Source: a virus
Length of the DNA: 64,000 nucleotides
Virus record (IMG/VR): IMGVR_UViG_3300002052_000001
Location: 124,001 to 188,000 of that record
Reading direction: 5' to 3' (one strand)
In this document: positions 3,490 to 63,566 of the stretch, piece by piece
Position numbering within the stretch: the first letter of the stretch is position 1
Layout of the letters: each line of letters opens with the position of its first letter
Notes under the pieces: generated by a model
Databases searched by the model: none
The model's input: only the letters and a program-made list of their open reading frames with translations
What the model was told of the DNA's origin: nothing
Program-made: the position numbers and the translations under genes

Positions 3490-3726
3490 ATGGGACTGAG
3501 CACGCAACTGAGAGAGGCCGTGAAGGAAGGCGCGAGCTATTTCACGGTGGTCATACCGTGGGCGGACCCCAAAAAACGAACGAAGTGGCACCCAACCGAG
3601 AAGACCGGACCCTTTTCCAGGCTTACGCGGGGTGTCTTTCCTTCTCCGGACAAAGCTCATACCTGGGCGAAGAAGCACCTGGGAGACAATCCCTACGAGG
3701 TGAAGAAAGTTGCGGGAGCGTATTGA
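3490..3726 (+). CDS. Tagged small protein 1 (putative capsid-targeted)
   Basis: The 78-residue product begins MGLSTQLREAVKEG, which matches the N-terminal tag shared by at least 13 proteins in this window. CGGAGG lies just upstream of ATG 3490. The rest of the protein (about residues 18-78) is basic and has no recognised fold. VKE-G at residues 12-15 resembles a T4-type prohead protease site. I infer packaging into the head. The function after that is unknown. Confidence 0.7.
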   Translation: MGLSTQLREAVKEGASYFTVVIPWADPKKRTKWHPTEKTGPFSRLTRGVFPSPDKAHTWAKKHLGDNPYEVKKVAGAY

Positions 3727-3752
3727 GCAGTCCACTGGCGCGGAGGATCGAT

Positions 3753-4343
3753 ATGGGATTGAGCGGGCAGCTACAAACAGCGCTGGACGAGCGTAAGGGG
3801 CTGACCTTCGTACAATCTAGGGACGCCATTCTCGACAAGTTGGAGTCGGAGGGTTGGAAGCTGTCCAGCCGGACGCTGAAGATTCCGCACGCCACTTCGC
3901 TCGATGGCGATTTGCGGCTCTGGTTCAAGGCTCAGGCCGTGCATTATACGAAGAATGGCCGGGGGTATCGGCACAGCATGGGCGATGCCCACACCCTAGC
4001 CTATGACCTGGATATTCGGAAGATGACGCCGGAGCAGTTTATCCAAGTGCTCAAGCGGCGGTTCCCGAAGGTAGCAATCGGAGAGGCCCTGGATGAGACG
4101 GTAGGGACCGATGCGTCCAAGTTACCGACGGAGGCATACGCGATTTACCGGACGTTCACGGCCGACTATAGGACCCAGATCGAGTGGGCGCACGACAAAG
4201 AGGGCCACTGGTTCAAGCGGTTCCAGGAGCGGCACCCAAGGTACGGGTACAGATGGGGGAAGTGGAAACCAGCCCCGAGTCCACCGAGGTTGATCAGTAC
4301 TCATCCGGCTACAACCAAGAAAGCGCGACTGCCGAAGTGGTAG
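3753..4343 (+). CDS. Tagged protein 2 (putative capsid-targeted)
   Basis: The product has 196 residues from ATG 3753, where CGGAGG lies just upstream. The same frame stays open upstream, but the tag MGLSGQLQTALDE marks the start. L-D-E at residues 11-13 fits the T4 protease preference. The body has no domain I recognise, and the C terminus is Pro/Arg-rich. It is the second of four consecutive genes, three with a tag at the start. Confidence 0.65.
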   Translation: MGLSGQLQTALDERKGLTFVQSRDAILDKLESEGWKLSSRTLKIPHATSLDGDLRLWFKAQAVHYTKNGRGYRHSMGDAHTLAYDLDIRKMTPEQFIQVLKRRFPKVAIGEALDETVGTDASKLPTEAYAIYRTFTADYRTQIEWAHDKEGHWFKRFQERHPRYGYRWGKWKPAPSPPRLISTHPATTKKARLPKW

Positions 4344-4346
4344 GCG

Positions 4347-5288
4347 ATGGCATTTTTCAAGCGCGTCCCGGAGTTGTCCAGATGGAAGACCAGTAAATGG
4401 GCTGGTGGACAGACGGAGTATAACGTCGTTACGGACAGGGGGGCCTACCAGATGGTGCCCTTCAGTCGGAGGACGCCGACGGGAGGCTTTGAGCTGGCGG
4501 GCTACACGTTGAAGTTCGCTCCGATGGGTAGGCTGAGTAGGAAGATTCTCGCGAAGGGCAGGAAAGAGCTGGGCGACGTAAAGACGGCAGAGGAAGGCGT
4601 GAAAAAGGCGGCTGAACACCATCGATCGTTGGGTGAATCCATGAGTGCGCAGCTTGCAGCGGCTCTCCAAGAAGGGAAGCAGCGGACTTATCGTGTTCAG
4701 ATAAGCAAAGCCTATTTTCCGCACGGAACTCAACCAACGAAATACGCGATGAGTGACGTCTGGGATGAAGTGAAGGTCAAAGCCGGTTCTCCTTCCGAAG
4801 CGGCGCGTGTGGCATGGAAATCGAAAGGGGATGAGTGGCTCCAAAAGATGGGTCCGCCAAAGACAAGGGTGCGAAAAGTGAGTTTGAATGTCAGCCAGCC
4901 GGGTATAGGCCCGACGGGGTTCGCTGGGCGTTTGCCGCCAATTTTGGTGCATACTTCGACCGCTGGCGTTACGGAGGCGGCCCTCCAGGAGGGCAAGCTA
5001 AAGATGAGCGGCGAGAAGGTGGACGCCAAGGCCACCGGGTCGCTGCGGAAGGTGAAGCTGAAGGCGAAAAACCAAGGGGACCTCAGCAGCGCGGTCATCT
5101 CCGCCGGGTACTACGCTAAGAAGTGGGGGCAGACCATGTACGTTTATGCCGGTGATTCTTTCGGCCACGCGATATGGCGTGTGACCGCTAAACAGTCGGA
5201 TGCGTTGAATCCAATCAACAACTCGGGGAGGCGGCTGTTATCGGTTTCTCCGGACCTTACCGTGAAACGATATGACGTAGGGGATTGA
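4347..5288 (+). CDS. Two-part protein with an internal tag motif
   Basis: This is one continuous 313-residue frame. Residues 1-98 form one segment. At residue 99 (ATG 4641) the sequence reads MSAQLAAALQEGK, the tag motif that elsewhere marks protein starts. A further ALQEGK occurs near residue 210. Either two genes have fused, or translation also starts internally at 4641 to give a tagged 215-residue protein. No enzymatic motif is visible. Confidence 0.6.
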   Translation: MAFFKRVPELSRWKTSKWAGGQTEYNVVTDRGAYQMVPFSRRTPTGGFELAGYTLKFAPMGRLSRKILAKGRKELGDVKTAEEGVKKAAEHHRSLGESMSAQLAAALQEGKQRTYRVQISKAYFPHGTQPTKYAMSDVWDEVKVKAGSPSEAARVAWKSKGDEWLQKMGPPKTRVRKVSLNVSQPGIGPTGFAGRLPPILVHTSTAGVTEAALQEGKLKMSGEKVDAKATGSLRKVKLKAKNQGDLSSAVISAGYYAKKWGQTMYVYAGDSFGHAIWRVTAKQSDALNPINNSGRRLLSVSPDLTVKRYDVGD

Positions 5289-5290
5289 AC

Positions 5291-61708: not shown

Positions 61709-61712
61709 GTCT

Positions 61713-62369
61713 ATGGACCCGGTGCCTATCAGCGCGTTTTTTGAGGCCCGGCTGCCCCAGGTGGCGACTCCGGCGTACCGTCGTGGGTATGAGAGGATCT
61801 TTGGCAAAAAAGCCCAGGCTCGCAGGGAGAAGGAGCAGCGGAAACGGCAGCAGGATAAGGAGCGTCAGGTCAAAAAGGAGAAGGATGCTGCCGCCAAACA
61901 GCGCAAAAAGCAGAGGAAGGAGACCGAGAAGAAGCGCAAGGAGAAGGTCAAGGCTCTGGAGAAGGGGAGAATGGGCCGTAAGGCAGCGGCCGGGGCGCGC
62001 CAAGCCAAAGCCCGTGAAAAGCGGAAGCCCCCGAAGCCTCCCGGCCTGCATATGATTCCGGCCCAGATCGCACACTGCATGATGGCGGTGCACAAGAAGC
62101 GGGGAAAATCCAAGGAAGCGGCCTGGAATATTTGCCGATGGGCCATGACAAAGTACGGTTATCTGGCAGGACCGTATCGCCGGAACACGAAGCTGCCGAA
62201 AGCCGTAAAACAGACCCAGAAGGGGGTACGCCGGTCCTTCCAGCACGGCATGGAAAAGGGGCCGTTGGGTGGTGGACTACCGGGCACCGGCATCAGCAAG
62301 TACAATAGATTCATCAAGATGTTCAGGGATGTGGAGAACGAATTTCTCCCGAAGGGAGCGCGAACATGA
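61713..62369 (+). CDS. Lys-rich coiled-coil head-region protein
   Basis: The product has 218 residues from ATG 61713. A long charged helix (about 30-110, KKEKDAAAKQRKKQRKE) precedes HMIPAQIAHCMMAVHKKRGKS...NICRWAMTKYGYL, a conserved module in phage proteins. The start VPISAFFEARL loosely recalls the packaging tag. Confidence 0.6.
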   Translation: MDPVPISAFFEARLPQVATPAYRRGYERIFGKKAQARREKEQRKRQQDKERQVKKEKDAAAKQRKKQRKETEKKRKEKVKALEKGRMGRKAAAGARQAKAREKRKPPKPPGLHMIPAQIAHCMMAVHKKRGKSKEAAWNICRWAMTKYGYLAGPYRRNTKLPKAVKQTQKGVRRSFQHGMEKGPLGGGLPGTGISKYNRFIKMFRDVENEFLPKGART

Positions 62370-62614
62370 GCTATCACGCCAAGGACGGCAAGTTCTCTTC
62401 GGCCGTTTCTGCCCATTCGGTGAGCAAGGGCGGCGAGCGGTTCAAGGTTGTCCGGCAGCACCGGCGGATCGGGCCATCCAAGAAGCGTAGCAAGCGCCGG
62501 GCGGCTGAGGACGCTGTGGCGCGGAGTAACCTGGCCAGGCAGAGGGCGGCCCTTACAGGGGCCTTGTCGGGGCCGGGATGGATACCCGTCAGGCAGGTGG
62601 TTGAAGGACAGTGA
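62366..62614 (+). CDS. Small basic protein
   Basis: An 82-residue protein overlapping both neighbours by 4 bases. Arg/Lys-rich centre (RIGPSKKRSKRRAAED). Unknown. Confidence 0.55.
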   Translation: MSYHAKDGKFSSAVSAHSVSKGGERFKVVRQHRRIGPSKKRSKRRAAEDAVARSNLARQRAALTGALSGPGWIPVRQVVEGQ

Positions 62615-63204
62615 CCTGCAAGATCAAGACTCTGGGGAGCTGCCACGGCGGCGACACGACCCTTACCGGGGGCGGTGTCGATAATGTCCGGCGGCTGTTC
62701 CCCGATGCGGATGTAAGCGAGAGGCCGCTATGGGATTCCATCGCGTCCGAGCCCGCCAAGCTATCGGGCGTGGACGTGAAACTGTGGTCGCTGCGGCGTG
62801 CTAAGCACCGTCATCCGCTTTATGGTGAGCCGTCATTTGGTGGCAAGGAGTGGTCGTTCAACGGACCGTATGAAATGGCGGGGGGCCTGGAATTTGATGA
62901 GGCCCAGGAGGTCGAATCCGAGGCCACGACTGAAGGTTTGGGTAAGACATCCAATGCGGTGCTCTGGATTGCCCGCAAGGAGTTTGAGGATGTGGGCGCG
63001 CCCGACCCGAAGATCGGTGACGTGATCGAGTTCTGGGGCGATAAGGCAACGCCATTTCTGCGCCAGTTCAAATACTGGGAGGTGACCAGGGCCAACCCGG
63101 ACGGTCATATTATGTCCACACCGGAATACGTCCAGTACCGGATTGAGCTGAAGCAGCGGACCAAATTCGAGCCGGGCCGCAAGGTGGAGGGTACCTCCAC
63201 ATGA
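62611..63204 (+). CDS. Putative neck/connector protein
   Basis: The product has 197 residues from GTG 62611. A beta-rich C-terminal half (VIEFWGDKATPFLRQFKYWEV) is seen in phage head-tail connectors. The function is inferred from position. Confidence 0.55.
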   Translation: MTCKIKTLGSCHGGDTTLTGGGVDNVRRLFPDADVSERPLWDSIASEPAKLSGVDVKLWSLRRAKHRHPLYGEPSFGGKEWSFNGPYEMAGGLEFDEAQEVESEATTEGLGKTSNAVLWIARKEFEDVGAPDPKIGDVIEFWGDKATPFLRQFKYWEVTRANPDGHIMSTPEYVQYRIELKQRTKFEPGRKVEGTST

Positions 63205-63566
63205 GCCTTGCAGAACAGCTCGCTCGGGCCGTCTGGGAGCCCCAGGAGCCCCTTCCGAAGAATGCCGAGAAGGTACGTCTGGGTATTGGCCAATTCGTGG
63301 AGGTGAGAACCCGTGCCGGGGAGCTGGTGATCACCGGTACCATTCAGCAATTAAATCCACGTACGCACACCATCCGGGTAGCCGATCTGGGGTCTGGCTC
63401 TGATGTTCAGGTAGATGTGGATCCCCGTATGTATGACGTATGGGTCAGGGACGTGCAGATTCCTGGTGGCGCTCCTACACCGAGCAGGCAGCCAGAGCTG
63501 AATTTGAGGGGGGCCAACCCAGGGGCTGCGACCTTGGGGAAGAGGTACCGGGTTTTCCAAGCATGA
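63201..63566 (+). CDS. Tagged small protein (putative capsid-targeted)
   Basis: The product has 121 residues. The ATG overlaps the previous stop. It begins MSLAEQLARAVWEPQEP, a form of the shared tag. The body (VRLGIGQFVEVRTRAGELVITGTIQQL) looks like an SH3/KOW-type barrel. Confidence 0.65.
   Translation: MSLAEQLARAVWEPQEPLPKNAEKVRLGIGQFVEVRTRAGELVITGTIQQLNPRTHTIRVADLGSGSDVQVDVDPRMYDVWVRDVQIPGGAPTPSRQPELNLRGANPGAATLGKRYRVFQA

Follow-up and report, generated by a model that had tools for sequence, protein, structure and literature searches.

Why would a phage begin many otherwise unrelated proteins with the same short peptide? The window analysed here, a 64,000-nucleotide stretch of the genome of an uncultured T4-like phage (IMG/VR record IMGVR_UViG_3300002052_000001, positions 124,001 to 188,000), raises this question through 13 genes whose products, according to the first-pass annotation, share an N-terminal tag that likely targets them to the capsid. 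All 13 starts (3490, 3753, 5291, 16670, 25246, 26058, 26523, 27939, 29224, 29529, 29800, 59103 and 63201) open with the consensus M-x-[LIF]-[SA]-x-Q-L-x-x-A, the tag at 27939 being one residue longer (VGGLADQLAEA). The 14th copy reported at 4641 is also present, internal to the ORF at 4347-5288, where a second AALQEGK follows about 105 residues further on. Behind the tags the bodies are unrelated, as had been claimed, with no blastp match at E < 0.05 among the 13 window proteins and the ORF at 4347 (Table 1). The original observation is correct, and it is conservative.

Table 1. Tagged genes and head genes of the window (window coordinates; a slash marks a predicted cut)
Position	Strand	Length (aa)	N-terminus	Remarks
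3490..3726	+	78	MGLSTQLREAVKE	Tagged; homologous-looking tagged gene in relative G005 (46871)
3753..4343	+	196	MGLSGQLQTALDE	Tagged; G005 ortholog tagged and fused to more modules
4347..5288	+	313		Probable three-module cargo polyprotein; internal tag at 4641 (MSAQLAAALQE/GK) and second AALQE/GK
5291..5632	+	113	MGLSKQLQEATE	Tagged
16670..17641	+	323	MRISEQLDWALFLIE	Tagged
25246..26013	+	255	MSIAAQLADALYE	Tagged; ADP-ribosyltransferase-like motifs by eye only
26058..26510	+	150	MSIAQQLQEAA	Tagged; tagged ortholog in G008
26523..26936	+	137	MSIAQQLQEAAGGEELTE/A	Tagged; same module inside G004 and G007 polyproteins
27939..28703	+	254		Tagged; GTG start; phrog_2859 member; ParB-like motif by eye
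29224..29520	+	98	MGLAAQLQEAMAAPLGE	Tagged
29529..29777	+	82	MGIAAQLREAKG	Tagged
29800..30375	+	191	MLISEQLGEALTE	Tagged; methyltransferase-like
51830..53689	+			gp20-type portal protein (family match)
55788..57422	+			gp21-type prohead protease (residues 1-165) fused to long scaffold-like C-terminal part
57499..59007	+			gp23-type major capsid protein (PF07068, E 4.7e-60)
59103..59903	+	266	MTFSAQLEAALQE	Tagged; immediately behind capsid gene
59913..60503	+		MHGRFEFYGAPDIDREMRLEE/V	Other shared N-terminus
63201..63566	+	121	MSLAEQLARAVWE	Tagged; body bears different tag type in G006

A motif search with a 13-column profile over the entire 191,623-base record, both strands included, recovers 23 copies at 22 bits or more, while the next best sequence scores 13.6. 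Because the profile was trained on 22 of these 23 matches, the evidence is the gap below 22 bits rather than the score itself. The copies comprise 21 N-terminal and two internal ones (4641 and a long ORF at genome positions 40624-44166), and weaker variants occur at genome positions 45306, 45960 and 82211. A pairwise comparison of residues 2-20, independent of the profile, finds 60 alike protein pairs in this genome versus 11-14 at four body positions. Across ten records (this phage and nine relatives), a profile lacking the two Glu columns is passed by 56 N-termini versus 0 of 1255 equal-size internal windows. At the invariant Q, L and A, codon diversity is close to what genome codon usage predicts, so the tag did not spread by recent DNA duplication.

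The L-x-E motif noted near the tag is also present, in a more specific form than first described: it reads QLxE (site 1) or ALxE (site 2), and few tags have both. Counted with a profile blind to both Glu columns, Glu stands at +3 or +7 of the tag as site 1 only in 28 cases, site 2 only in 14, both in five and neither in nine. The two positions compensate (Fisher p = 5.7e-4 over the ten records; p = 0.016 in this genome alone), and one or the other is filled in 47 of the 56 tags, Glu being absent or unclear in the remainder. Several orthologs of the genome 6539 and window 63201 families join the tag straight to the body; together with the nine tags lacking both residues, this means that some tags may stay on the protein. 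Cleavage may not be uniform, since some orthologs have no clear L-x-E behind the tag.

The gp21-like protease named in the annotation at 55788 is borne out by a family match (PF03420, E 6.7e-17) and by a match to a prohead protease structure (5jbl, E 9e-11). The capsid protein has a predicted propeptide cut, QLQE/D, at about residue 60. In the gp23 cleavage region of 27 capsid sequences, one from this phage and the others from 26 loci in relatives, P3 is L or M and P1 is E in 27/27, with P2 free.

Related phages, when searched for the tag, use the same scheme, and orthologs keep it: the 6539 family retains the tag in four relatives and at further loci, as do orthologs of the 63201 family. Tags can also be swapped. 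The 63201 body carries this tag in G018 and MDVQRINAVLREAI in G006, and both end in L-[DE]-E/AAERV ahead of the body. Relatives also use other N-terminal tags, mostly ending in L-x-E as well: ..[VI]DxLLE[AR] on 14 proteins of G011, MDIxxVNxVLxxAI in G006 and G018, and probably ..LK[ST]L[IV]ES in the cultured phage Colly_1, where the excess of alike pairs is modest (9 versus 3-5). The consulted portion of the Colly_1 paper contains no virion proteomics. No clear shared tag set appears in the cultured phages SP-15, LIS04, RM378 and Mel-JY01, which have a gp21-type protease, so the protease alone does not predict one. A further candidate swap, genome 99485 versus G012_137015, was dropped; G012 retains LIFEQLDEA behind its own leader.

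Cargo bodies that stand alone and tagged in one phage lie inside long polyproteins in another, and G004_30004, G007_168237, G000_40624 and the G005 chain combine common modules differently. The junctions examined carry L/M/V-x-E: LDE/A, LHE/A, VRE/A and LSE/A on one module in four phages, LHE, LRE and LTE on a second, and LTE/A, LLE/A and MVE/A on a third. The internal VLSE/A of the protein at genome 71350 aligns with the tag QLTE/A of the standalone G008_26146; at the junctions of the LTQYDQ and HHYDGK modules, the alignment is good only to one or two residues. A search for homologs of the window ORF at 4347-5288 found none, so its module limits are inferred.

Three long polyproteins have no significant Pfam domain, and the cargo domains recognised are SprT-like, RelA/SpoT (found on single tagged proteins) and methyltransferase. 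For a tagged G002 ortholog of 29800, the match to Methyltransf_23 (E 2.4e-5) falls slightly short of the curated threshold. Family matches are missing for most bodies, so the few recognised domains carry the case for an effector role. The 25246 protein has no Pfam or PHROG match and no relatives among phages or viral contigs, and the GTG start of 27939 is supported by its tagged ortholog G004_148654. PDB sequence searches with both proteins gave nothing significant, and their single-sequence structure models (mean pLDDT 38) were unusable and set aside, so the ADP-ribosyltransferase and ParB readings remain by eye.

Comparison supports the capsid-targeting interpretation through the head machinery, the capsid propeptide L-x-E, the compensating Glu, the tags of orthologs, the swap and the junctions. 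The tag is most likely a capsid-targeting propeptide in the style of T4 internal proteins, with docking, gp21-type cutting, injection and polyprotein cargo, and about two dozen unrelated tagged proteins are probably packed in the head and delivered to the host. Through a helix at its N-terminus, of the pattern M-x-[LI]-[SA]-x-QL-x-[E]-A-[L]-x-[E], each protein would dock on the prohead core (the scaffold), which in this phage is probably formed by the C-terminal region of the protease protein. Once the shell has assembled, the gp21-type protease would cut behind the conserved L-x-E, which lies within the tag or directly after it, and release the mature protein inside the head, as with the capsid protein. 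DNA would then be packed around the freed proteins, which we infer enter the host with it, act early and serve as effectors. Some cargo appears to be polyprotein, its modules separated by L-x-E segments or whole tags, so one chain could deliver several mature proteins. The packaging signal varies by lineage, presumably tracking the scaffold, and bodies seem to move between tags.

In T4, short N-terminal signals likewise sit on unrelated proteins (IPI, IPII, IPIII and Alt), and gp21 cuts after L/I-x-E (PMC9026906) near residue 10-20, a cut that is actual in T4 and predicted here. IPII and IPIII begin MKTYQEFIAE/A; IPI carries ITE at residue 19, which fits its 76-residue mature form (PMC3012670). 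The layout, a short helix-like segment and then L/I-x-E/A near residue 10, is shared, but the T4 peptide MKTYQEFIAEA is not matched here, and the tag is treated as a functional analogue rather than a homologous one. Alt is cut at both ends (PMC9026906), a precedent for C-terminal tag copies. Unlike T4, with three internal proteins and Alt, this genome has at least 21 such proteins, along with internal copies and polyproteins, and related lineages have different tags. The T4 principle is apparently enlarged to about 9% of genes, with lineage-specific tags and polyproteins that the prohead protease would cut.

In phiKZ and SPN3US, too, a homolog of gp21 processes numerous internal head proteins by cutting after a short x-x-E motif, with 19 cleaved proteins each in phiKZ and 201phi2-1 (PMC10052503). 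Their propeptides are mostly long (> 100 residues), the phiKZ motif is S/A-x-E (PMC5694885, PMC9026906), and the consulted parts of these sources describe no short tag shared by unrelated bodies, the paralogs gp53/gp54 excepted. The polyvalent proteins of phages and conjugative elements, multidomain chains thought to be packaged and injected, carry conflict domains including RelA/SpoT and ADP-ribosyltransferases and are likened by their authors to polyproteins (PMC5512222). They too hold several unrelated, mobile domains per chain, but release is proposed there through embedded peptidase domains, whereas the junctions here bear the site of the prohead protease, and their modules are found as separate tagged proteins as well. 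In P1, the N-terminal 30 residues of DarB are enough to take a reporter to the capsid (PMC9024508), but this was demonstrated for one very large protein, not for a shared set.

Could the tagged proteins instead belong to the head structure or its scaffold, processed by the protease without being injected? The T4 core proteins gp22, gp67 and gp68 are likewise cut by gp21 (PMC5694885, PMC9026906), the 59103 gene adjoins the capsid gene, and most bodies lack a recognised function. Enzyme-like domains (SprT, RelA/SpoT, methyltransferase) argue against this, as do the patchy presence of tagged genes in relatives and their position in scattered clusters outside the head module; we regard it as unlikely.

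It is also quite improbable that the tag stays uncut and targets a phage- or host-made complex or a membrane in the infected cell, L-x-E being a by-product of an acidic amphipathic helix. The nine tags without Glu, the direct tag-body fusions and a raised helical moment (0.40 versus 0.29 for other N-termini) would fit this idea, but the compensating Glu, the invariant capsid-propeptide motif and the junction sites point to proteolysis, the net charge (mostly -1 to -3) is unlike that of export signals, and internal and C-terminal copies ill suit a simple sorting signal. We give hardly any weight to a functionless peptide copied with its start region and ribosome-binding site during gene gain. 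The leucine codon CTT, used in 11/22 tags versus 10% genome-wide, is a possible trace of common descent, but Q and A codons vary as genome usage does while the residues stay fixed, tags recur in polyproteins and relatives, and the different peptides of other lineages share the L-x-E ending.

If capsid targeting is right, a shared N-terminal helix ending in L-x-E plus a gp21-type protease would be a rule for deducing from genome sequence which proteins uncultured phages inject, many of them without a known family. T4 injects anti-restriction and host-modifying proteins, so such cargo lists would supply candidates for new functions in counter-defence and takeover. Loading several effectors through one signal, by means of polyproteins that a head protease cleaves, would be a new strategy; no description of a head protease in this role in phages was found in the literature searched. 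The chances are about even that this amounts to a modular head-loading code, in which every lineage relies on one or two packaging peptides of its own and effectors travel single-tagged or as polyproteins cut inside the maturing head, the prohead protease doubling as polyprotein protease. Colly_1, cultured on Maribacter forsetii, appears to have its own tag set and would make the idea testable.

Profile matches at G001 36222 and G002 71079 look false, since they seem to fall within the window 54711 homolog, and the argument does not use them. The tag pattern in a 7.6-Mb bacterial bin gave nine matches versus 15 in the reversed control, as by chance. An exact DNA pattern of the full tag, strict enough to miss even this genome, had no match across viral_contigs, and the T4 late promoter TATAAATA occurs once, not above control. 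The other shared N-terminus, at 59913, recurs on the genome ORF at 72870 with 79% identity over 24 residues, and the two bodies have a weakly similar stretch in common (30%).

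A short N-terminal peptide of the form M-x-[LI]-[SA]-x-QL-x-x-A, here called the tag, recurs throughout this phage genome. The first-pass annotation had counted 13 N-terminal tags and one internal copy in the window, on bodies (the proteins behind the tag) that it considered unrelated; every copy was confirmed in the sequence, and the window proteins indeed share no relationship beyond the tag. Across the whole 191,623-base record, of which the window covers bases 124001-188000, a tag profile identified 23 copies scoring at least 22 bits, with the next best match at 13.6, of which 21 are N-terminal, one lies inside ORF 4347-5288 and one inside a 1180-residue ORF. 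About 9% of the 266 predicted genes (simple gene finder; starts approximate) are tagged. A profile-free pair test gave 60 similar pairs at residues 2-20 versus 11-14 at body positions. Codons vary at fixed tag residues, indicating that the peptide is conserved, not the DNA. The tag leucine is encoded by CTT in 11 of 22 tags in the genome, against 10% genome-wide.

Features located in this analysis (window, the 64,000-nt stretch; genome, the whole record)
Feature	Coordinates	Strand	Details
ORF with internal tag copy	genome 40624-44166		1180 residues
Extra N-terminal tag copies outside window	genome 6539, 71115, 71350, 72321, 74107, 97927, 98736, 99485		tag profile
Weaker tag variants	genome 45306, 45960, 82211		
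Prohead protease protein	window 55788-57422		544 residues; residues 1-165 gp21-type protease (PF03420; 5jbl)
Second shared N-terminus M[YH]GRF[DE][YF]YGAPDIDREMRLEE	window 59913-60503 and genome 72870-74102		79% identity over 24 residues
Probable UvrD-type helicase	window 17736-19817	-	function by eye; N-terminal leader MSIGNILSEAKG

The window encodes a T4-type head module comprising a portal (PF07230), a gp21-type protease and a gp23-type capsid protein (PF07068). The protease, already proposed from the sequence, is borne out by its family and structure matches and is joined to a long scaffold-like part; gp070 of Colly_1, a cultured phage of Maribacter forsetii, is annotated as "prohead core scaffolding protein and protease", and the corresponding frames of SP-15 and LIS04 span 560-568 aa. 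T4 gp21 cuts after L/I-x-E (PMC9026906). Capsid proteins from 26 loci of relatives, and that of the phage itself, all carry L or M three residues before the expected cut and E just before it (26/26 plus the phage), with many different residues in between. Judged from sequence, this is the trace expected of a protease with L/I-x-E specificity.

The tag follows the pattern QLx[E]A[L]x[E], in which Glu mostly takes the first place and, if absent there, usually the second. With a profile blind to both places, ten records yielded 28 tags with Glu in the first only, 14 in the second only, 5 in both and 9 in neither. This compensation has p = 5.7e-4 across all the records and p = 0.016 when this genome is taken by itself; both values are approximate, as related sequences are non-independent. 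T4 is likewise flexible: IPII and IPIII carry IAE↓A (↓, predicted cut) at residue 10, while IPI lacks it and instead has ITE at residue 19, in agreement with its 76-residue mature form (PMC3012670). Among the readings of the tag, head targeting followed by protease processing has the strongest support and is very probably correct; by T4 precedent, the tagged proteins may also be injected into the host. The principle is already known; the new part is its scale, the lineage-specific tags and the putative protease-cut cargo polyproteins.

The body of window 26523 occurs inside long proteins of two relatives, G004 and G007. One module is preceded in four phages by LDE↓A, LHE↓A, VRE↓A or LSE↓A, with unrelated sequence upstream; the G003 copy sits behind a leader of 21 residues. 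A second module is preceded by LHE, LRE or LTE and a third by LTE↓A, LLE↓A or MVE↓A, although the alignments at these two are precise only to within one or two residues; the chance of [LMV]-x-E per nine-residue window in these polyproteins is 13%. An internal VLSE↓A of genome 71350 lines up with QLTE↓A, the tag on a standalone G008 protein, and in G006 the tag itself ends one ORF at its C-terminus. At the sequence level, the junction L-x-E, the internal tag alignment and the ORF-final tag identify tags and L-x-E segments as separators of polyprotein modules, where the protease would presumably cut.

The genome 6539 family keeps its tag in four relatives and at additional loci, and the window 63201 family in most relatives. 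In G006, the 63201 body carries a different leader, MDVQRINAVLREAI; the G006 and G018 leaders of this family both finish L-[DE]-E↓AAERV directly ahead of the body. These two records also share the leader MDIxxVNxVLxxAIxxxQE, behind which several proteins have a second common element, EA...G..Y.VP[ST]P. A different peptide, of the form MSLIDRIDAMLE↓A, is found on 14 proteins of G011, and G012 has a weak four-member set. In Colly_1, about ten proteins share an N-terminal motif LK[ST]L[IV]E↓S, with a modest excess of similar pairs (9 versus 3-5), and phage immuto has small sets intermixed with probable signal peptides. SP-15, LIS04, RM378 and Mel-JY01 encode the protease and show no clear shared tag set, so the tag rule is common, not universal.

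Most tagged bodies gave no match in family searches. Recognizable domains include SprT-like (genome 97927), RelA/SpoT (tagged proteins of G004 and G007), which is recorded in polyvalent proteins (PMC5512222), and a methyltransferase slightly below the curated cut-off (G002 ortholog of window 29800); G002 tagged proteins also show weak DUF3293 and SAM-lyase matches. The two proteins with the second shared N-terminus have a further common 90-residue stretch (30% identity), and the genome member carries DUF2958 at its C-terminus. Leaders like that of the helicase, possibly another packaging leader, occur in G003, G004, G005 and G007 and are absent from G001 and G002. By eye, intein-like insertions appear to split the G003 helicase gene (52657-55608) and a terminase-like G006 ORF (from 64300, minus strand).

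DNA comparison of the window's first 25 kb found no close named phage. Two clusters at window 6347-16577 hold 37 predicted tRNA genes, one with an incomplete anticodon. The capsid protein shares 79% identity with that of contig L110 (183 kb), which was assigned to the bin of a Phycisphaerae genome, and this binning weakly hints at a planctomycete host.
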